Assembly (NCBI RefSeq): GCF_041154745.1
Contig: NZ_AP031573.1
Location: 3,720,001 to 3,784,000 of the forward strand
DNA length: 64,000 nt
Reading direction: 5' to 3'
Source of the DNA: Flavobacterium sp. CFS9
GTDB taxonomy: Bacteria > Bacteroidota > Bacteroidia > Flavobacteriales > Flavobacteriaceae
Each line of letters starts with the position of its first letter. The first letter of the stretch is position 1. This document shows positions 2,759-15,770 of this stretch, piece by piece. Under the pieces are notes generated by a model. That model was not told the origin of the DNA. It saw only the letters and a list, made by a program, of their open reading frames with translations, and ran no database searches. The translations under genes were made by a program, and so were the position numbers.

Positions 2759-4117
2759 CTATTTCTCTCTATCCTTCCTCTTCTTATCTCTTGTTTTCAA
2801 CATATTTCGATTGACAGATCCGTGGGTTTTCTTTTTGGTTTTAGACGGACCTCCAAGATTGACTTTTTTATTCTTTTTCGATTTTTCGTGAAAGGCACCT
2901 TCACCCTCAAGTTTTGGTTTTTTCATTAAAAACTTGATAGGCTGTCTGTCTTTTTCCGGCTCAATTAATTTGGTTGAAATTTCAACTTCTTCAGGGAAAT
3001 CAGCAATTTCAAGTTCCTGGTTCATTAAAACTTCAGCTTCAATTTTAAATTCTTCTTCACGAGGTGTAATGAAACTAATCGCAGTTCCCGTAGCATCGGC
3101 ACGACCTGTACGCCCAATTCTGTGCATGTACAATTCAGGGGATTCAGGAAGCTCAAAGTTAATAACGTGCGAGATGTTCGAAATGTCTAAACCTCTGGCC
3201 ATAATATCAGTGGTAATTAATCCGCGAAGATTTCCTTCCTGAAATTCTGCCATAGTACTCAAACGGTAATTTTGAGATTTGTTAGAGTGAATTACTCCAA
3301 ACTGACCTTCAAAATCCTCTTCGATTCGGGTATGAAGCATATCCGAAATCTTTTTATTGTTCACGAAAACCAAAACACGTTCCATACTTTCATCAGTTTC
3401 CAGTAAATGTTTCAGTAAATTTACTTTGGTATTGAAATTCGGGACATTATAAGTAATCTGTGTAATTTTTTCCAAAGGTGTTCCCGAAGCAGCAAGTGTT
3501 ACCTCTTCCGGAAAGTCAAAAAAGTCATTCAGTACAGCATCAACTTCATCGGTCATGGTGGCTGAGAATAAAATGTTTTGACGTTTGGTTTTCATCATCG
3601 CCAAAAGGGCTGTCAATTGCGTACGGAAACCTAAATTCAGCATTTCATCAAACTCATCAATAACCAGTTTCTGAGTTTCATCAAAACGTACTACGGCATC
3701 CAATGCTAAATCCATTGTTCTACCTGGGGTTCCAACTAAAATGTCTACACCTTCGTACACCGCTTTTTTCTGTGTATTGATGTTGACTCCACCATAAATT
3801 CCCAGTGTTTTAACCGACATGTATTTGGTTAATTTCTCTACTTCTTCTACTACCTGAACAACTAATTCACGGGTCGGAACCAGAATTACAATTTTAGGCG
3901 TATTGGTATTGGTGAATTTGTATAATTTTAGAAGGGGTAATAAGTAAGCAAATGTTTTACCGGTACCGGTTTGTGCAATTCCCATCATGTCACGGCCAGA
4001 CATAATCACTGAAAAAGATTTTTCCTGAATGGGAGTAGGAGTAACAAAACCTAGTTCGTCGATTGCTTTTTGTACTGATTTTGGGAGATTGAATTTTTCG
4101 AAAGTGCTCATTTGCAT
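2759..4117 (-). CDS. DEAD-box RNA helicase with DEFD motif II
   Basis: This 452-residue ATP-dependent RNA helicase has the full two-RecA-domain core: Q motif near residues 6-31, Walker A AQTGTGKT at about 48-55, PTREL, TPGR, motif III SAT at about 185 and motif VI HRIGRTGR. Motif II reads DEFD (about 154-157) instead of the usual DEAD, which is still a valid DExD form. The basic, lysine-rich C-terminal tail is typical of RhlE-like bacterial helicases and probably binds RNA. Expected roles are ribosome assembly or RNA turnover in the cytoplasm. A second ATG six bases downstream (4111) is also plausible, given a TATATTTG element at 4129-4136. Confidence 0.93.
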   Translation of the reverse strand: MQMSTFEKFNLPKSVQKAIDELGFVTPTPIQEKSFSVIMSGRDMMGIAQTGTGKTFAYLLPLLKLYKFTNTNTPKIVILVPTRELVVQVVEEVEKLTKYMSVKTLGIYGGVNINTQKKAVYEGVDILVGTPGRTMDLALDAVVRFDETQKLVIDEFDEMLNLGFRTQLTALLAMMKTKRQNILFSATMTDEVDAVLNDFFDFPEEVTLAASGTPLEKITQITYNVPNFNTKVNLLKHLLETDESMERVLVFVNNKKISDMLHTRIEEDFEGQFGVIHSNKSQNYRLSTMAEFQEGNLRGLITTDIMARGLDISNISHVINFELPESPELYMHRIGRTGRADATGTAISFITPREEEFKIEAEVLMNQELEIADFPEEVEISTKLIEPEKDRQPIKFLMKKPKLEGEGAFHEKSKKNKKVNLGGPSKTKKKTHGSVNRNMLKTRDKKRKDREK

Positions 4118-4220: not shown

Positions 4221-4589
4221 CTATAAAAATCGTTTTATTCGCAATAAAAGTTCATTTGGGTTAAATGGTTTTGCAATAAAATCGTCTACACCCAATTCAA
4301 AAGCTTCTTCCACGGTGTTTTCTTCTTCTCCAAGCGAAGAAAGTGCCACCACGAAGATGTTGCTGTAATTTTGCTTGATTTCATTGATAATTTCCAGACC
4401 GGATTTAAGCGGTACGGTAATCGTGGTAATTACTAAATCAGGCATAATAATGGGAAGTCGCTCCATGGCATTGAGCCCGTCTTTGGCAATACTAACTTTG
4501 AAGCCTTCTTTTTTTAGAATGAATTTTAGAATTTCAACAGTCATATCATCATTGTCGATGATCATGATTTTTTTATCGTTACTATCCAT
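4221..4589 (-). CDS. receiver-only protein lacking the phosphoacceptor Asp
   Basis: The 122-residue product is a single CheY-like receiver domain with no output domain. The conserved lysine is present (IAKPFNPNEL near the C-terminus), and so is the first acidic-pocket Asp (D12 in IDNDD). The second acidic position is Asn13. The phosphorylation site, expected as Asp in a PDLVIxDIxxP context, is Thr56 (PDLVITTITVP). Normal aspartyl phosphorylation is therefore unlikely; it may act by constitutive binding or another signal. It is the last gene of the HEAT-GT2-YaiO-DUF4838 operon, starting 8 bases after the preceding stop, so it may control that machinery by protein contact. Confidence 0.9.
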   Translation of the reverse strand: MDSNDKKIMIIDNDDMTVEILKFILKKEGFKVSIAKDGLNAMERLPIIMPDLVITTITVPLKSGLEIINEIKQNYSNIFVVALSSLGEEENTVEEAFELGVDDFIAKPFNPNELLLRIKRFL

Positions 4590-4597
4590 TTTGACTA

Positions 4598-6811
4598 TTA
4601 TTTTTTAAACAATTCTATTTCGTCCAGCATTATCATTGCTTTTTTGTTTTTTCGCTTTCTCCAGACGGGCAATTCCTTCTGGTTTTCTACTACGATTTTA
4701 ATCTTGGTAAAACTACTGAATATTTGATTTTCGACTTCCCATGATTGTGTTGTAATTTCGTAGTCTTCTGTTAAAATGTTGCAAATTTGTTCCTTAATAA
4801 GTTCCCATTTCTGATTCTTAAAACCGTAGATTTTGATACTTTTTGGTGTAAAAATCCAATGTCTCTGATCGCTTAGGAAATTTAATTTCAAGGTGTTGAA
4901 ATCAAGTTTTTTGGTTTCAATTTCAATTTCAGGATTCGTTGCATACCATCCCATCCAGTTGATATTGAAGTTTTTGTACCCCCTGTTTCCGTCCACTAAA
5001 CCATAACTTCCTTTGCCTTTAAACTCATCAGATGGAGGTGTTATGAAGGTAACTTTCAAATCCTCTCCTAAATGAGTTGTAGTGTTTTTGCAAATCTCAA
5101 GCCATTCTTTGTAATAATTATCAGGAGAGATTCCGTCTTCGCTCAATTCATAAATTCCAAACTGATTGCAGGATTGCGAGAATTTTAGAACTCTTTCAGT
5201 TAAACCTGTTTTTACTTCTTTTTCACCTTTGTTATTTACGACAAACATACCGTGTTGGTTTTTTCCATAAAATTTGGCCTGTTCAAAATAAACAAATTCT
5301 AAAGCCAGTCGTAATTTATGAACACGTGAGCTTAAAATGGAATCATTTTCGACGGCATTATTGGCCTGTTCCAGAAAATGATCGTACTGATCCATGGCTT
5401 CAGGAGTCAGGAAGGTATTTCGTGCCTGAACTGGACCGGAATAAATATCAAGATAAGCTTTACTTTTGCTTTGATTGGCTTCTAAGAGTTCAAGGTATTT
5501 CGCGACAAAGGGTGCTGCTTTTCCGTAAAAACCTCTGAGGAAATCAGCGGTAACAGCTTTAATGTCAATTTCAGTATCCCACATTAATTTGGCCAGCAGG
5601 TATTGCCGTAATTCCGAAAGATCGCCCGGAACATCAGCATATCCCTGTACAAATAACCCTTTTACTTTGTTTTTTTGAAAGAGTTTATAGTTGCTTTGAA
5701 AAGATCCAAAATTAGGAAAGGGAGACATGAAATTAGAGAATTGTACCGTGTAATCCCATAAAAACAGCTGCGGTGAAGTCGTACTCCAGTTTTCCAGATT
5801 TTTGACAAAGGAGGGATTGTTTTGACTGGTAATAGGTTTGCGGCGATCCAGTTCGATTGGACATAAAATGGTGCAAATATTTGGTGCTATTTTCAGATTT
5901 ACGGGTGGTTTGAAGGTATGAAGATAGGCAAGCGTAGTAATTTTGGTTTTAGGAAAACGAGCTGCTATTTTATTCAAAAAATAATAAAAGGAACCTTGCG
6001 GACCGCCATATTTGTTGTTCATGGCTCGGCATTGCGTGCATTCGCAATACACGACGTCATCATTCTGGCTTACGGAATAGAATTGGGCGTTGGGGGTTTT
6101 TGCAATAATTTCGGTCATTTTTTCAGCGACCAGATTCACAACAGTATCGTTGGTCATGCACAGAGATTCTGTGTTTCGTTCCCCTTCGTACAAAGCAAAA
6201 AGTTTAGGATTGCTTTTAAAATATTCTTTTGGAGGAACGAGAATGTTAAAAGAATGACCCCAAAGACCAAAATCGTCAATGTGCCAGTCGAGTTTGTGCC
6301 AGTCCCTGAAATCTTCGTCATAACAATCCGGGTAAAACAATGCTCTGTAATCAAAAGACGGGTGATAGATTTTGTTTGTATTTTTTGCAAAAGTAAACTG
6401 AGTCATTTTTGGAATATAAGTTTCTGTCGCGGTAAATTTTCGAAACTCCCAGATTTCGAGTAAAGTATAAACGGCATAACGCAGGTATTTCTGATTGGGA
6501 GCTGTTATATAAATTGATTTTGAATCACTTTTGATACTGAATTCGTTTGCTTTTAGTTTTTTATCATTGGAAATTTCCAGTATGATTTCGGAAGCATCAC
6601 TCTCTTTTTGACTTTTTGTAGTAATTTCAAATGTTTTTGACACGGATTTTTCCAAATACATCTTAAGAATTCCGGCCGCAGCCTGAGTAGTTTCGGTTGT
6701 GGCAATAATTTTGGTTTTATCGGATATTATAATTTCAGATTGTGCCATCATCTTAAAACTAAGCAGGGTGAGAATAAGGATTTGTAAATAGATAAGGCGC
6801 TTTTTTTTCAT
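4598..6811 (-). CDS. DUF4838 glycosidase-like exported protein
   Basis: The 737-residue product has an N-terminal signal peptide ending near MMAQSEII. A small alpha/beta N-domain like those preceding GH20/GH67 catalytic barrels follows (about 25-140). The DUF4838 region carries SLCMTNDTVVNLVAEKM and the CxxCRAMNNKYGG segment. The C-terminal region (about 590-737) looks like a beta-sandwich discoidin-type domain. DUF4838 proteins are thought to have a glycoside-hydrolase-like barrel, but activity is not established. Here it is 5 bases from the YaiO barrel gene and downstream of a polysaccharide synthase, so processing a nascent exported glycan in the periplasm is a reasonable inference, comparable to the hydrolase domain of PgaB. 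Confidence 0.82.
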   Translation of the reverse strand: MKKKRLIYLQILILTLLSFKMMAQSEIIISDKTKIIATTETTQAAAGILKMYLEKSVSKTFEITTKSQKESDASEIILEISNDKKLKANEFSIKSDSKSIYITAPNQKYLRYAVYTLLEIWEFRKFTATETYIPKMTQFTFAKNTNKIYHPSFDYRALFYPDCYDEDFRDWHKLDWHIDDFGLWGHSFNILVPPKEYFKSNPKLFALYEGERNTESLCMTNDTVVNLVAEKMTEIIAKTPNAQFYSVSQNDDVVYCECTQCRAMNNKYGGPQGSFYYFLNKIAARFPKTKITTLAYLHTFKPPVNLKIAPNICTILCPIELDRRKPITSQNNPSFVKNLENWSTTSPQLFLWDYTVQFSNFMSPFPNFGSFQSNYKLFQKNKVKGLFVQGYADVPGDLSELRQYLLAKLMWDTEIDIKAVTADFLRGFYGKAAPFVAKYLELLEANQSKSKAYLDIYSGPVQARNTFLTPEAMDQYDHFLEQANNAVENDSILSSRVHKLRLALEFVYFEQAKFYGKNQHGMFVVNNKGEKEVKTGLTERVLKFSQSCNQFGIYELSEDGISPDNYYKEWLEICKNTTTHLGEDLKVTFITPPSDEFKGKGSYGLVDGNRGYKNFNINWMGWYATNPEIEIETKKLDFNTLKLNFLSDQRHWIFTPKSIKIYGFKNQKWELIKEQICNILTEDYEITTQSWEVENQIFSSFTKIKIVVENQKELPVWRKRKNKKAMIMLDEIELFKK

Positions 6812-6816
6812 ACGAC

Positions 6817-8082
6817 TTAGAATTTATATTGCAGTAAAAAAGCGAAATCAAGTTCGTTTTGAAACTTTTTAGGGGTGTATTCCTGTTGGTTGTTGGTGAT
6901 TAGTATCCCAAAAATATAATGGGTTTTGATTAATTTATAAAAACCGGCACTTAGTCTGTACGAACTTAAAGAAGCTCTGTTTTCATATTCTGCTGCTCTG
7001 GTCTGATCATCCGGCGAAGTTCCATAACCCGCAATCAGGGTGAGATAATCAAACTTGGTGCCGTAATAGTAGCGGGAGGTAAGAGTAAACGATGGGCTGT
7101 CTTTTTGAATGTAAGACCTTAAATTGAGCCAGTAAGCCCCAAAGTATTTTCCTAGTCCGACATTTAATGTTTTTAAATTGCTGTTGTCCTGCATTTCGAT
7201 GTAGCGGAAGCCTAAATCAGCCTCCCAGCCTTTGGCAAAATTGTAGAAATAGGAATAGCCTAATCTCCATTTCGGAAAAGCGATGTCATTGCTGTAGGCA
7301 ACATCAATGTAGGAGTAGTTGTTTTTCTTTCCTGAAAGGTAAGATTCAACTTCAAATTGGAGCCCGCTGGCCATGACCTGACTGAAAGATCGTCTCTCTG
7401 CATAACTTACTCTTCCAATTAAACTTCCCCAGCTACGCTGATGTGTATAATCGGCACTTGCCAGATGCCAAGGGCCAATACCGTCGCGATCAATTGTGGT
7501 GAAGTTGTAATAAACACCCGCCCGATCCATATTGGTTTTGGAATACAAGGCAAAAAGATGCTGTTCAATGTTGGCGTCATTAGGATATTTTGTTCTTATT
7601 GATTTTAGGTCTTTTTCTTCATTTTTGGTGTCATTCTGTAGAGCATAAATCGCAATTCTTTTCAGTCTGAAAGTTTTATTGTCCGGAAACTGCTCAATTG
7701 CTTTATTGGTTAGGGCTAGAGCTTTGTCGTAGTTTTTCGCCTCTAAATCCATATTAATCAGATACAGATAGGCATCTTCATAGGCCGGGTTTTTATCAAT
7801 GACATAATTATAGTAAAATCGGGCACTGTCTTTTGCTTTTGTCAGCTCATGATTTCGACCCAATACCAGATAGAAATCCAGATAATCCGGAGCCAGTTTT
7901 TTCCCTAACTGAGCTCTCCGGATATTTGTTTTGTAGTCCGGACGGGCACTTTTCATGTCTTGGAGCACAACAGTCAAAAGGCTGTCAGTGTCTATTTTTT
8001 TTTGACCTTTTGCGGCTGGGCAGGTCAATAGAAATAAACAAAAAAGCAGTTTTATTAAGGATATAGTTCTATTATGATTCAT
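6817..8082 (-). CDS. TPR plus YaiO-type outer-membrane beta-barrel protein
   Basis: From the ATG at 8082 the 421-residue product begins with a signal peptide (MNHNRTISLIKLLFCLFLL, cleaved near AAKG). TPR-like helical repeats follow (about 25-180, for example YEDAYLYLINMDLEAKNYDKA). The C-terminal half has alternating aromatic beta-strands typical of the YaiO outer-membrane family, ending in FLLQYKF with a terminal Phe. A periplasmic TPR domain plus a barrel is also the design of the PgaA glycan exporter. An upstream ATG at 8112 would add ten residues and overlap the glycosyltransferase gene by 23 bases; I prefer 8082 because the signal peptide then sits at the N-terminus. Confidence 0.85.
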   Translation of the reverse strand: MNHNRTISLIKLLFCLFLLTCPAAKGQKKIDTDSLLTVVLQDMKSARPDYKTNIRRAQLGKKLAPDYLDFYLVLGRNHELTKAKDSARFYYNYVIDKNPAYEDAYLYLINMDLEAKNYDKALALTNKAIEQFPDNKTFRLKRIAIYALQNDTKNEEKDLKSIRTKYPNDANIEQHLFALYSKTNMDRAGVYYNFTTIDRDGIGPWHLASADYTHQRSWGSLIGRVSYAERRSFSQVMASGLQFEVESYLSGKKNNYSYIDVAYSNDIAFPKWRLGYSYFYNFAKGWEADLGFRYIEMQDNSNLKTLNVGLGKYFGAYWLNLRSYIQKDSPSFTLTSRYYYGTKFDYLTLIAGYGTSPDDQTRAAEYENRASLSSYRLSAGFYKLIKTHYIFGILITNNQQEYTPKKFQNELDFAFLLQYKF

Positions 8083-8089
8083 GATCAGC

Positions 8090-9526
8090 TTATTTTTTAG
8101 TTGGACTTTCATATCCTTTACGGACCATTACACCCCAGTTTTGTTCTTTTCTTCGAAAGAAGAGCCAGTAGCCTTTCAGTGAGGCATAAATTGTTATCGG
8201 ATGGTACACAAAGGGTTCCAGTGCGGCCATCCCAATAAGAATCATTAACTCTTTATAATTGGCATAACTTTTATACAGTATTTCATCTATCAATATGGAT
8301 ATGATGGTTATGGAGAGATAGAACAGATAGACTAATAAGCTTATAATCAGTAAATGCTGGTAGTCGATAAGTCCAAATATAAAACTGAAAATTAGAGTCA
8401 GAATACCAATAAATTCAATAATGGGAACTAAAAACTCAAAACTGAAAAAGAAAGGTAATACCAGAAATGCTGTTCGTCCGTATTTTGGATTTAAAAACAT
8501 TTTTCGATGTAAATACAAGGTTTGAACTAGTCCACGAGCCCAGCGAATGCGTTGTCTTAAGAATATTTTTCGTGTACTCGGAACTTCTGTCCAGCAGAGC
8601 GATTCTGGAATGTATTTGATTAAGTATTTTTCTTTAGTATCGTGCATGTATTTTCGCATGCGTGTCACGAGTTCCATATCTTCACCTAAGGACTGATGCC
8701 AGTATCCGCCCGCTTTAATCACAATGTCTTTGTCAAACATGCCAAGACCTCCCGAAACCAAAAGCAGACCGTTTAGCTGACTCCAAGCCATTCTTCCAAA
8801 CAAAAAGGATCTCACATATTCTAATTCCTGAAAACGCGGATACCATTCTTTAGGATAATGAACTTTAAACAAAAAGCCTTCCTTGATTTCGCAGGAGTTT
8901 GAAATCCTGATTCCGGCCCCGCAGGCAATGACCCGTTTTTCATTTTCCATAAATGGTTTGGCCAGTTTCAAAATAGTATCTCTTTTTAGAATACAATCTA
9001 CATCGGTACATAAAAATAGAGGATATTGTGAAGAATTGATTCCTGCATTTGCCGCATCAGCTTTACTTTTTCCGTTTACTTTGTCAACAATCAGTAATTT
9101 CGAATAAACAGGATTCTTTGATTTATAATGTCCGCGAACAGGCTGTGTGGCTATTTTCTCCTGATAATAAAAGTCAATTTTAACCAGATCAAATTCGGCA
9201 ATTAGTTTTTCCAGCGTATCGTCCGTACTTCCATCATTGACAATAATGATTTCGTATTTCGGATAGGTTAGAGAAAGCAGGGATTTGACATTGTAAACGA
9301 TATTTACTCCCTCATTAAAAGCAGGAGCTACAATGGAAACCCCCAGTATATGGTTCGAACGAATTAAAATTTCTTCTTCCAGGTATTTTTGATATTTTAA
9401 ATGTTTTACGATCGCCCAATAAGAAAGAACAGACAGAAAGATGTAGAACAGTATATACCCAATTGAAAAATGGATCACAAAGACATTGTAACAGTGAACA
9501 ATATAATGTAGAAAATCAGTCGTCAT
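8090..9526 (-). CDS. membrane processive glycosyltransferase family 2 (PgaC/BcsA-like)
   Basis: This 478-residue inner-membrane protein has an N-terminal helix (about 18-40), a cytosolic GT-A domain and several C-terminal helices (about 350-450). Catalytic signatures are intact: VNDGSTDDT (96-104), DVDC as the DxD motif (175-178), the GED general-base motif (281-283) and QRIRW, the QxxRW motif of processive synthases (325-329). Such enzymes polymerise beta-linked sugars and often thread the chain through the membrane. The nucleotide-sugar substrate cannot be told from the sequence; poly-GlcNAc or a beta-glucan are candidates. The gene overlaps the preceding HEAT gene by four bases (ATGA), implying translational coupling. 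Confidence 0.93.
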   Translation of the reverse strand: MTTDFLHYIVHCYNVFVIHFSIGYILFYIFLSVLSYWAIVKHLKYQKYLEEEILIRSNHILGVSIVAPAFNEGVNIVYNVKSLLSLTYPKYEIIIVNDGSTDDTLEKLIAEFDLVKIDFYYQEKIATQPVRGHYKSKNPVYSKLLIVDKVNGKSKADAANAGINSSQYPLFLCTDVDCILKRDTILKLAKPFMENEKRVIACGAGIRISNSCEIKEGFLFKVHYPKEWYPRFQELEYVRSFLFGRMAWSQLNGLLLVSGGLGMFDKDIVIKAGGYWHQSLGEDMELVTRMRKYMHDTKEKYLIKYIPESLCWTEVPSTRKIFLRQRIRWARGLVQTLYLHRKMFLNPKYGRTAFLVLPFFFSFEFLVPIIEFIGILTLIFSFIFGLIDYQHLLIISLLVYLFYLSITIISILIDEILYKSYANYKELMILIGMAALEPFVYHPITIYASLKGYWLFFRRKEQNWGVMVRKGYESPTKK

Positions 9527-10584
9527 AGTTGTAATTCTCTAATGTGATTAATCATTTTTTGTGTATCAGAATCTTGTCTCCCTAATATATCCAGACGTGC
9601 AAAATCCAGATCGTTTAAAGCGGCTACCATTTTTAACTTAAGATCTTTGATTTCTTCTTTCGGAATTTGATGATTTAAAAACGCGATTGTTTTTTCTGAA
9701 CCTATAATAGCGAGGGCGTCAAGAATTTCCAATTGAAGTTCGATACTCTCGTTCTTAAATAGCAGTAATAAATCCTCTTCGGCCTCATACAGGTACAAGT
9801 CGCGAATGGCAATAATTACATCGGTTCTCAGGTTTTTATTTTCGTGTTGGAGCAATTTGATGATATCCTGTGATCTGTTTCTGTAATTATAAAAAACCAT
9901 GGTCATTACAGCTAATTTCAGAACAGTCGGATTGTCAGATTCTATCCAATCTTCTATTTCTGGTGGAATCGGTATGTTCTGCGAATGCAATACATCCATT
10001 ATTTTTATGGTGGTACTGATGGATACTTTTACCGGAATCTTATTAACGGCCTGCCAGTCTCCTTTGGTTAAAATCAGGTAAGCAATATTGGCGTTTGACC
10101 GGATAATTTTATTGGGATGGAACAAATATTTTTTGATTAGAGCAATTCCCGGTTTGTATCCTAAGGCTTGAAAATGATAAATGCCATCACATTTTTTATA
10201 TTTTCTAAAATCCCGAAGTAAACTTGCCGAATAACGGTTTAAACCCAGTTGTTTGTAAATAACAAGAATGTTTTTGGCAGTTTTGCCTTTTAAATTGCTT
10301 TTCATCCGAATCATATCGTCGATAAGCATTTCTTTACACCAGGTTTTATGTATTGGAATTTCGGATCGGAATTTGGCAATTTTGTATTTCAGAATACTTT
10401 CTTCCGGTCTTGAGAGTGTAATCTCCGTAAGGAAAATTTCAGATTTTCTAACAATATGATGCCGGTAAGGAAGAGTGTATTGATAATGAATTCTTTTGAG
10501 TATTAATGCAAGTGCTAAAGCTAAACTTGTAAATACAAATAATGGGATGGCGTAGTGTTTTATATAACCTATAAAATGCTCCAT
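9523..10584 (-). CDS. membrane-anchored HEAT-repeat protein
   Basis: The 353-residue product has one N-terminal transmembrane helix (about residues 11-28) followed by an all-helical region. Repeating pairs such as HENKNLRTDVIIAIRDLYL and FKNESIELQLEILDALAII are typical of HEAT/armadillo scaffolds. No catalytic motif is visible. It is the first gene of the operon and overlaps the glycosyltransferase start by four bases. Inferred role: a cytoplasm-facing scaffold for the synthase, possibly the docking partner for the receiver-only protein at the operon's end. That partnership is a guess from gene order. Confidence 0.8.
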   Translation of the reverse strand: MEHFIGYIKHYAIPLFVFTSLALALALILKRIHYQYTLPYRHHIVRKSEIFLTEITLSRPEESILKYKIAKFRSEIPIHKTWCKEMLIDDMIRMKSNLKGKTAKNILVIYKQLGLNRYSASLLRDFRKYKKCDGIYHFQALGYKPGIALIKKYLFHPNKIIRSNANIAYLILTKGDWQAVNKIPVKVSISTTIKIMDVLHSQNIPIPPEIEDWIESDNPTVLKLAVMTMVFYNYRNRSQDIIKLLQHENKNLRTDVIIAIRDLYLYEAEEDLLLLFKNESIELQLEILDALAIIGSEKTIAFLNHQIPKEEIKDLKLKMVAALNDLDFARLDILGRQDSDTQKMINHIRELQL

Positions 10585-10655: not shown

Positions 10656-11420
10656 CTAAAACCCTTCAAAAACGCCCAATCCGAAAAGGGCAAAGTCATA
10701 TTTTACCGGATCATGAGGATCCATTTTTCTGAGTTTAAGATCGAGTTCAGTTAAGGCTTTTCCATCATTTTGTTTTCGGGTTAGTATCCCTAATTTTCGG
10801 GCCACATTACCGGAGTGTACATCAAGCGGACAGGACAATAAAGCAGGCGATATGGTTTTCCAGATGCCTAAATCGACACCTTTGGTATCCTGGCGCACCA
10901 TCCAGCGCAGGTACATGTTGATTCTTTTTGCTGCCGAATTGTTTAACGGATCCGAAATGTGCTTTTGGGTTCGGGGTAAATGATCAATTTCAAAGAATAT
11001 TTTTTTGAATTCGCTTATACTTTTCTGTAAGCCGTCAGCCTCCTGATTTTTAGCAAAAACAGCCTCCAGACCATTGTGATTTTTATAGATGTGCTGTAAT
11101 CCTTTTACAAAGCCTGTAAAGTCCTTTCCGTTAAAAGTACGGTGTACAAAGTTCTCAAGACGCTCCAGATCTTCGTCAGTATGTGACATTACAAAATCGT
11201 AAGGAGTATTACCCATTAATTCCATCATTTGATGTGAATTTTTGATAATCATCTTGCGATTTCCCCAGGCAATGGTAGCACTCAAAAAACCGGCAATCTC
11301 AATGTCTTCTTTCTGAGAAAACAAATGAGGAATTTGCACAGGATCGCTTTCGATAAAGTCGAGATTGTTGTATTGAATGACTTTTTCGTCAAGGAATTCT
11401 TTGAGTTCTTTTTGTGTCAT
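10656..11420 (-). CDS. TIGR02757 family protein (DUF2400)
   Basis: The 254-residue product matches my memory of the TIGR02757/DUF2400 family common in Bacteroidota, including the segment IAGFLSATIAWGNRKMIIKN and the C-terminal region KMDPHDPVKYDFALFGLG. The family is helical and has been likened to HhH-GPD base-excision proteins (the segment LSCPLDVHSGNVARKLG fits a DNA-glycosylase-like fold), but no activity is established. It begins 38 bases after the ABC ATPase gene on the same strand and is probably co-transcribed with it. Confidence 0.85.
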   Translation of the reverse strand: MTQKELKEFLDEKVIQYNNLDFIESDPVQIPHLFSQKEDIEIAGFLSATIAWGNRKMIIKNSHQMMELMGNTPYDFVMSHTDEDLERLENFVHRTFNGKDFTGFVKGLQHIYKNHNGLEAVFAKNQEADGLQKSISEFKKIFFEIDHLPRTQKHISDPLNNSAAKRINMYLRWMVRQDTKGVDLGIWKTISPALLSCPLDVHSGNVARKLGILTRKQNDGKALTELDLKLRKMDPHDPVKYDFALFGLGVFEGF

Positions 11421-15599: not shown

Positions 15600-15770
15600 A
15601 TCGTTTATTTGTTTAATCGATACACCAATTTGTTATTTTTTCCTTTTTTTGTTTAGGAGCTAATCCCGCTATCCGTTGCAATCTTTTTTATTTTTAAAGA
15701 AAAAATAAAAAAGGATTTCCACTTCTATCGGGGCTAGGAATCCCGTGTTCAATTTCTGTTTTTAGCAAAC
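15600..15770. repeat. dispersed intergenic inverted element between serC and serA
   Basis: The left half AGCTAATCCCGCTATCCG (about 15659-15676) and the right half TTCTATCGGGGCTAGGAATC (about 15723-15742) are imperfect complements. They flank an A/T-rich centre (TTTTTTATTTTTAAAG...AAAAATAAAAAA) that can also pair. I recall very similar elements from other Flavobacterium genomes, but cannot search here. Confidence 0.6.

Follow-up and report, generated by a model that had tools for sequence, protein, structure and literature searches.

A HEAT-GT2-YaiO-receiver gene cassette of Bacteroidota, probably a synthase-dependent-type exopolysaccharide machine working without c-di-GMP

Described systems and layout of the locus

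Five synthase-dependent polysaccharides are known according to the excerpt of PMC7112194 (2020) used here, which also presents control by c-di-GMP as typical of such systems. Its definition names a polysaccharide synthase of the inner membrane, typically a c-di-GMP-binding regulatory domain or co-polymerase, an enzyme that modifies or hydrolyses the chain in the periplasm, and periplasmic TPRs joined to an outer-membrane pore; hydrolases work on the polymer in the periplasm in several such systems (PMC5933820, in excerpt). The PgaABCD system of E. coli (poly-beta-1,6-GlcNAc) resembles the locus described here in that one operon encodes a GT2 synthase, a TPR plus outer-membrane barrel protein and a periplasmic carbohydrate-active protein. 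The cassette differs from it by having no deacetylase/GH153 PgaB and no PgaD among its five proteins, by the absence of GGDEF from the genome, by a barrel predicted with 14 instead of 16 strands, and by the addition of a HEAT protein and a receiver. Similarly, cellulose BcsABCZ shares the GT2, the TPR plus barrel protein and a periplasmic hydrolase slot filled by BcsZ, whose fold we take to belong to a hydrolase family other than DUF4838; unlike BcsABCZ, the cassette carries neither a BcsB-like protein nor PilZ (Pfam), and 14 strands are again predicted. The E. coli yaiS-yaiP-yaiX-yaiO genes likewise encode a GT2 and a barrel of the YaiO family together, with a deacetylase and an acyltransferase instead of HEAT and receiver proteins. 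E. coli YaiO (257 aa) had no significant pairwise match with YaiO of the window (E 0.48), and YaiP matches the window GT2 across 49 residues only. No description of a HEAT-GT2-YaiO-REC cassette was found among the literature matches listed (titles and abstract starts); DUF4838 is named in one paper among those matches.

The window, the whole stretch of 64,000 nucleotides that was analysed, is part of a complete 5.37 Mb chromosome. Five packed genes on one strand had been proposed from sequence inspection, and this was borne out: all lie on the minus strand and Pfam backs each of them. They encode a HEAT protein (9523..10584; 353 aa; HEAT_2 at 30.1 bits, barely above the cut-off of 27.7), a GT2 (8090..9526; 478 aa; Glycos_transf_2 at 67 bits, also compared with NCBIfam), a TPR-YaiO protein (6817..8112 as listed; YaiO at 153 bits), a DUF4838 protein (4598..6811; 737 aa; 306 bits, plus a GH20b domain) and a receiver-only protein, REC (4221..4589; 122 aa; Response_reg at 81.5 bits). 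HEAT and GT2 genes overlap by 4 bases, and gaps of 5 and 8 bases separate YaiO from DUF4838 and DUF4838 from REC, respectively. As listed, the YaiO frame overlaps GT2 by 23 bases; since M11 of YaiO is near-invariant in 52 aligned proteins, its likely start is at 8082, which leaves a gap of 7 bases. Closely packed, the five genes are genuine and under selection, with dN/dS of 0.03-0.16 for the computable pairs, other pairs being saturated. The GC content of the region (0.35-0.39) resembles most of the window and is uninformative on horizontal import; a promoter scan (27 sites for 28.5 expected) was similarly uninformative.

Synthase, barrel and DUF4838 protein compared with Pga

The GT2 has a hydrophobic N-terminal region and C-terminal TMs and is polysaccharide synthase-like. 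Its catalytic motifs, read as intact from the sequence, are so: D98, D148, D175-x-D177, E282-D283 and Q325/R326/R328/W329 (QRIRW) are each kept in 83-84 of the 84 cassette GT2s aligned (81 of them distinct). Hydrophobic segments and processive motifs together point to a predicted polymerase of the inner membrane.

The sequence-only reading had called the locus PgaABC-like, with the barrel protein and the synthase corresponding to PgaA and PgaC and DUF4838 possibly in the role of PgaB. By architecture the likeness stands, a TPR plus barrel protein, a processive GT2 and a glycosidase-like protein all being present. Could the locus then be a diverged Pga system, making PNAG by PgaC, exporting it via PgaA and using DUF4838 in place of PgaB? 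PgaC_IcaA is indeed the nearest curated model for the GT2 (NCBIfam), and the protein and E. coli PgaC share 25% identity in 305 alignment columns; the score of 112 bits is, however, far under the equivalog cut-off of 422, and a different GT2 of the same genome outscored the cassette GT2 when both were scanned together against PgaC. Neither a PgaB deacetylase nor a GHL13 (GH153) domain was found in the five proteins by Pfam, and a genome-wide search, positive on its E. coli control, found no GHL13. PgaD had no match among the five by Pfam and NCBIfam, and GGDEF was absent from the genome (control positive in 8/14). Finally, the TPR plus barrel architecture, which would favour this explanation, is modelled with 14 strands and not with the 16 of the PgaA barrel (PMC9384988, in excerpt). 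Family scores, the lack of GGDEF and GHL13 and the higher-scoring other GT2 thus rule out canonical Pga, and descent from it by divergence is improbable. PgaABC is a fair architectural analogy drawn from the wrong family.

The AF2 model of YaiO (mean pLDDT 88) consists of ten helices, the first a signal-like segment, followed by 14 strands, and its best Foldseek match is BcsC (9b8a, E 2.8e-9). The protein combines TPRs with a pore predicted to lie in the outer membrane, which makes it a candidate export channel. It is 93% identical to F. tructae YaiO, which places the host in Flavobacterium.

The layout of the DUF4838 protein comprises a signal-like hydrophobic N-terminus, a GH20b-like domain, a TIM barrel, a helical region and a C-terminal beta sandwich. 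The model suggests a glycosidase-like accessory with a GH20/GH84-like fold, putatively a periplasmic enzyme. With GH20/GH84 hexosaminidases it shares the GH20b-type N-domain, the TIM barrel and an Asp at the first position of the GH20 D-E dyad, which we take to be catalytic in GH20; it differs from them by its separate Pfam family, a variable second dyad position and four conserved cysteines (Cys218, 256, 258 and 261, in 43/43). The alignment puts D251-D252, kept in 54/54 close homologues, on this dyad. D251 is invariant, and position 252 may be D, N, E or S (N/E/S in 20/43); as it is Asn in 17/43, catalysis is not assured. The counts out of 43 refer to a set without L003, L004, L007 and L145 (duplicates or edge) and L106 (broken gene). 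A certain hexosaminidase is not claimed, GH115 and GH138 likewise matching the fold and the active-site loops of the model having pLDDT <50.

Homologues more than 50% identical occur in 20/149 Flavobacterium genomes, one of them broken. In G146 the gene is broken and in G198 it survives as a remnant, the other four genes being full length in both; this rules out DUF4838 as an essential part. Eight of the 43 DUF4838 genes lie outside cassettes, so that an exclusively cassette-borne family is likewise ruled out. Both observations would suit a scavenging glycosidase that sits in the operon by chance, like its relatives elsewhere in genomes. Against such a scavenger, 12 of the 27 DUF4838-bearing genomes of a 345-genome phylum sample, from several families, have their YaiO and DUF4838 domain matches on the same strand at a distance of 0.57-0.71 kb (read from coordinates), and in the window the two genes are 5 bases apart and DUF4838 is under purifying selection. 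We regard the scavenger as rather unlikely and prefer an accessory of the cassette. As for the PgaB role, DUF4838 is no fixed stand-in: it is absent from most of the machine loci examined, besides being broken or a remnant in the two genomes above.

Spread across Bacteroidota and the chromosomal slot

YaiO was found in 40/120 family genomes and 84/345 phylum genomes, DUF4838 in 17/120 (11 over cut-off) and 27/345 (26 over), respectively. The loci inspected were hand-picked, not random, and cover 24 of 42 YaiO matches at family level, and 38 of 89 at phylum level plus two others. Of the 24 family loci, 21 have GT2, HEAT and REC at most 8 kb from YaiO, 16 an LtaS-like sulfatase-fold gene and 8 a histidine kinase within the same distance. 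Among the 40 further loci, GT2 was seen in 30, GT2 with HEAT in 22, all three of GT2, HEAT and REC in 16 and an LtaS-like gene in 15. Ten of these 40 have no cassette-type GT2 near YaiO, which counts against the machine, as does the short length of some YaiO proteins in this wider set. As a control, no other cassette model matched above 100 bits in nine loci from the DUF4838 search that lie away from YaiO.

Thus, the core of REC, HEAT, GT2 and YaiO recurs in Bacteroidota, and DUF4838 is accessory. The sequence-only reading had made co-occurrence of all five families across the phylum a test; the families do co-occur, the five genes standing together in 15/149 Flavobacterium genomes (counted from gene maps; G164, one of these, has a shortened GT2 frame of 369 residues). 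Of the loci fetched, only those from Flavobacterium showed the exact set. The sets that recur outside the genus are HEAT-GT2-YaiO-DUF4838, with no receiver close by, and REC-HEAT-GT2-YaiO, in which the LtaS-like protein may be present or missing.

The midpoint-rooted GT2 tree, built without L003, L004, L007 and L145 (duplicates or edge), shows two deep clades. DUF4838 is nearby (at most 4 genes away, same strand) in 32 of the 38 leaves of one, and the LtaS-like protein, by the same measure, in 23 of the 41 leaves of the other. Three hybrids (G111, G176 and G590) have a GT2 of the first, DUF4838-rich clade fused to an LtaS-like protein, and one genome of the phylum sample (G402) carries a full tandem of both cassette types. 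For one example of the LtaS-like protein, the nearest PDB entry is the uncharacterized VP1736 (E 2e-16), followed by LTA synthases, which it resembles by sequence (2w8d, E 2e-7); phosphoglycerol transferase models matched it with low scores.

In Flavobacterium, the cassettes occupy one slot. Its upstream edge is a gene which we take to be of the DUF2400/TIGR02757 type (10656..11420 in the window, minus strand), present in 149/149 genomes; its downstream edge, judged from its motifs, is presumably a DEAD-box helicase gene (2759..4117, minus strand), present in 148/149 at E 1e-170. No tRNA was found at the slot, or anywhere in the window. Both edges stand on one contig and strand in at least 81/149 genomes. 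This is a lower bound, since the places (105 for DUF2400 and 85 of 148 for DEAD-box) were picked by eye for a shared contig, and G196, with a gap of about 2.9 kb, was missed. The gap measures <400 bases in 32 of the 81, 0.4-2 kb in 8 and at least 2 kb in 41; accordingly 32 slots are empty, which refers to the slot only, and 41 are occupied, 37 of them by versions of this machine. DUF4838 cassettes account for 20 of the 41, the LtaS-like type for 11 (10 with receiver) and HEAT-GT2-YaiO-REC alone for 6, including G198 with its DUF4838 remnant; four hold genes that no model labels. Mixed cassettes figure among the 20, such as that of G214, with parts of both types.

The cassette is thus an exchangeable unit at a single chromosomal position, present in some genomes and missing from others. 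Interchangeable surface-polysaccharide loci behave in this way. The slot also bears on whether the GT2 makes a glycolipid or a cell-wall sugar, with YaiO, DUF4838 and REC clustered beside it by chance and serving other tasks. This fits the loci in which YaiO stands apart from a cassette-type GT2; GT2, HEAT, YaiO and REC are nevertheless present or missing largely as one block in one slot, and TPR and barrel are joined within YaiO itself, so that a chance cluster seems quite unlikely to us. Two slot cassettes counted among the 20 (G128 and G246) are without yaiO, each genome having one elsewhere, which counts against the machine that we prefer. The slot alleles (empty, minimal, DUF4838, LtaS-like and hybrid) make the accessory roles testable among near relatives.

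The receiver and control of synthesis

The cassette is, in our view, probably an exopolysaccharide machine of the synthase-dependent type, found in Bacteroidota and independent of c-di-GMP. In the scheme by which we infer its product and control, the GT2 would polymerise a sugar, N-acetylhexosamine being the best guess, and move the chain across the inner membrane; the TPRs of YaiO, located in the periplasm, would lead it to the 14-strand barrel for export, and DUF4838, dispensable, may trim, clear or edit it in the periplasm.

As regards control, Pfam and NCBIfam reported neither a PilZ nor a PgaD-like family for the five proteins, and the cassette has no c-di-GMP-binding domain or co-polymerase of the sort that the excerpt of PMC7112194 gives as typical, which counts against the reading that we prefer; REC and HEAT occupy the place of the c-di-GMP domain in gene order. 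With no GGDEF in the genome, c-di-GMP is an unlikely switch, and we rejected it for this cassette. A recurring synthase-dependent-type machine in a GGDEF-less genome raises the question of how else such synthases are switched. The HEAT protein has one N-terminal TM (11-29; hydropathy) followed by a basic flank, so that its repeats are probably cytoplasmic, and it is likely a scaffold or regulator of the GT2. From gene order and predicted topology, it may hold GT2 and receiver together at the cytoplasmic face, so that the receiver, whose ancestral input would have been a histidine kinase, could switch synthesis post-translationally.

The receiver-only protein was correctly recognised in the sequence-only reading; it is not, however, an ordinary receiver. 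Its phosphoacceptor Asp is replaced by T56 and a Mg-site acid by N13. The phosphoacceptor is T, N or A in 93 of the 120 homologues listed (T 69, N 20, A 4) and Asp in the other 27. Among the 93 Asp-less receivers the second Mg-site acid is gone in 92, while D13 is present in 95 of 100 Asp-bearing receivers. In a receiver tree with these sites masked, identical receivers merged and more than 120 bits required, a single change accounts for all 96 Asp-less proteins among 169 distinct receivers (clade support 0.92); four nearby Asp-bearing relatives are already Asn at position 13. One distant receiver, L169_9, which falls below the score limit of the tree, has Asn at the phosphoacceptor and is perhaps a second loss.

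Loss of the phosphoacceptor and of one acid, together with the lack of a gene labelled by the kinase model next to the window cassette, might indicate a decaying leftover of a receiver that has lost its kinase. Such decay is hard to reconcile with a protein kept at full length under dN/dS of 0.03-0.11, with Ser84 and Phe104 present in 93/93 Asp-less proteins and Lys107 in 92/93, or with one loss from which 96 distinct receivers of the set descend, and we think it improbable. A receiver retained for a function is preferred. PMC12632262, in the excerpt used, defines an aspartate-less pseudo-receiver as a receiver domain without the D phosphorylation site; with T56 at this position, the window receiver falls under that definition. 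It has in common with the proteins of that excerpt the receiver fold, the missing D, the loss of one of the DD pair and the retained T/S and K; the examples given there are transcription or motility proteins, whereas the window REC is a free-standing domain encoded within a polysaccharide operon. In the window lineage, input would no longer come via Asp phosphorylation, and the pseudo-receiver may be a fixed subunit or answer another cue.

More tentatively, and as a possibility that we hold as close to balanced, the cassettes could form a c-di-GMP-independent class, spread through Bacteroidota, whose synthase is under the direct control of a HEAT scaffold and a free-standing receiver; the versions of this class (DUF4838, LtaS-like, tandems and hybrids) would be exchanged through the slot like capsule types, and the receiver of one lineage would have become phosphorylation-independent. 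How pseudo-receivers work is called a mystery in the excerpt of PMC12632262. The genome carries a second cassette (L144, G000:C1 at about 5.035 Mb), whose receiver keeps the Asp and is encoded next to a histidine kinase, and Asp-less and Asp-bearing receivers in the same operon type of one genome provide a natural comparison for pseudo-receiver action.

Variation in the GT2 and YaiO components

The LtaS-like sulfatase-fold protein and the GT2 were found as a single fusion in loci L103, L104, L155, L169, L170 and L172, and these fusions were spread over two different GT2 clades. In the L094 locus (genome G164), the cassette was complete apart from its GT2 gene (5167-6276), the frame of which stops at 369 residues, about 330 bases ahead of yaiO; either the gene was broken recently or the assembly is wrong at this point.

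A very long YaiO protein (930-1013 aa) was encoded in cassettes L132-L137 and L149-L151, most of which also carried a divergent DUF4838; the TPR region was long in the one scanned, and no receiver was seen near these cassettes, L149 excepted. Separately, G128 and G246 (L185, L186) possess a single yaiO, distant from the cassette at the slot between the DUF2400-type and DEAD-box genes, which itself lacks yaiO.

Receivers of related cassettes

At about 5.033-5.039 Mb of C1 (about 8000-13706 of L144), the genome of the window (G000) carries another cassette, in which GT2-HEAT-YaiO-REC is accompanied by a histidine kinase and the receiver retained the phosphoacceptor Asp. We also observed Asn at this position in L169_9, the REC gene of locus L169 (G410) and a distant relative. 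This residue could possibly represent an independent loss of the phosphoacceptor.

Slot contents and a Flavo-1 RNA

Slot genes in L193, L195, L201 and L210 (G204, G211, G187 and G242, respectively) were not labelled by any cassette model, hence the slot may also accept cargo other than the cassette.

Elsewhere in the window, a Flavo-1 RNA was detected at 15658-15739 on the minus strand (81.9 bits; gathering score, 42), flanked by two serine-biosynthesis-like genes.
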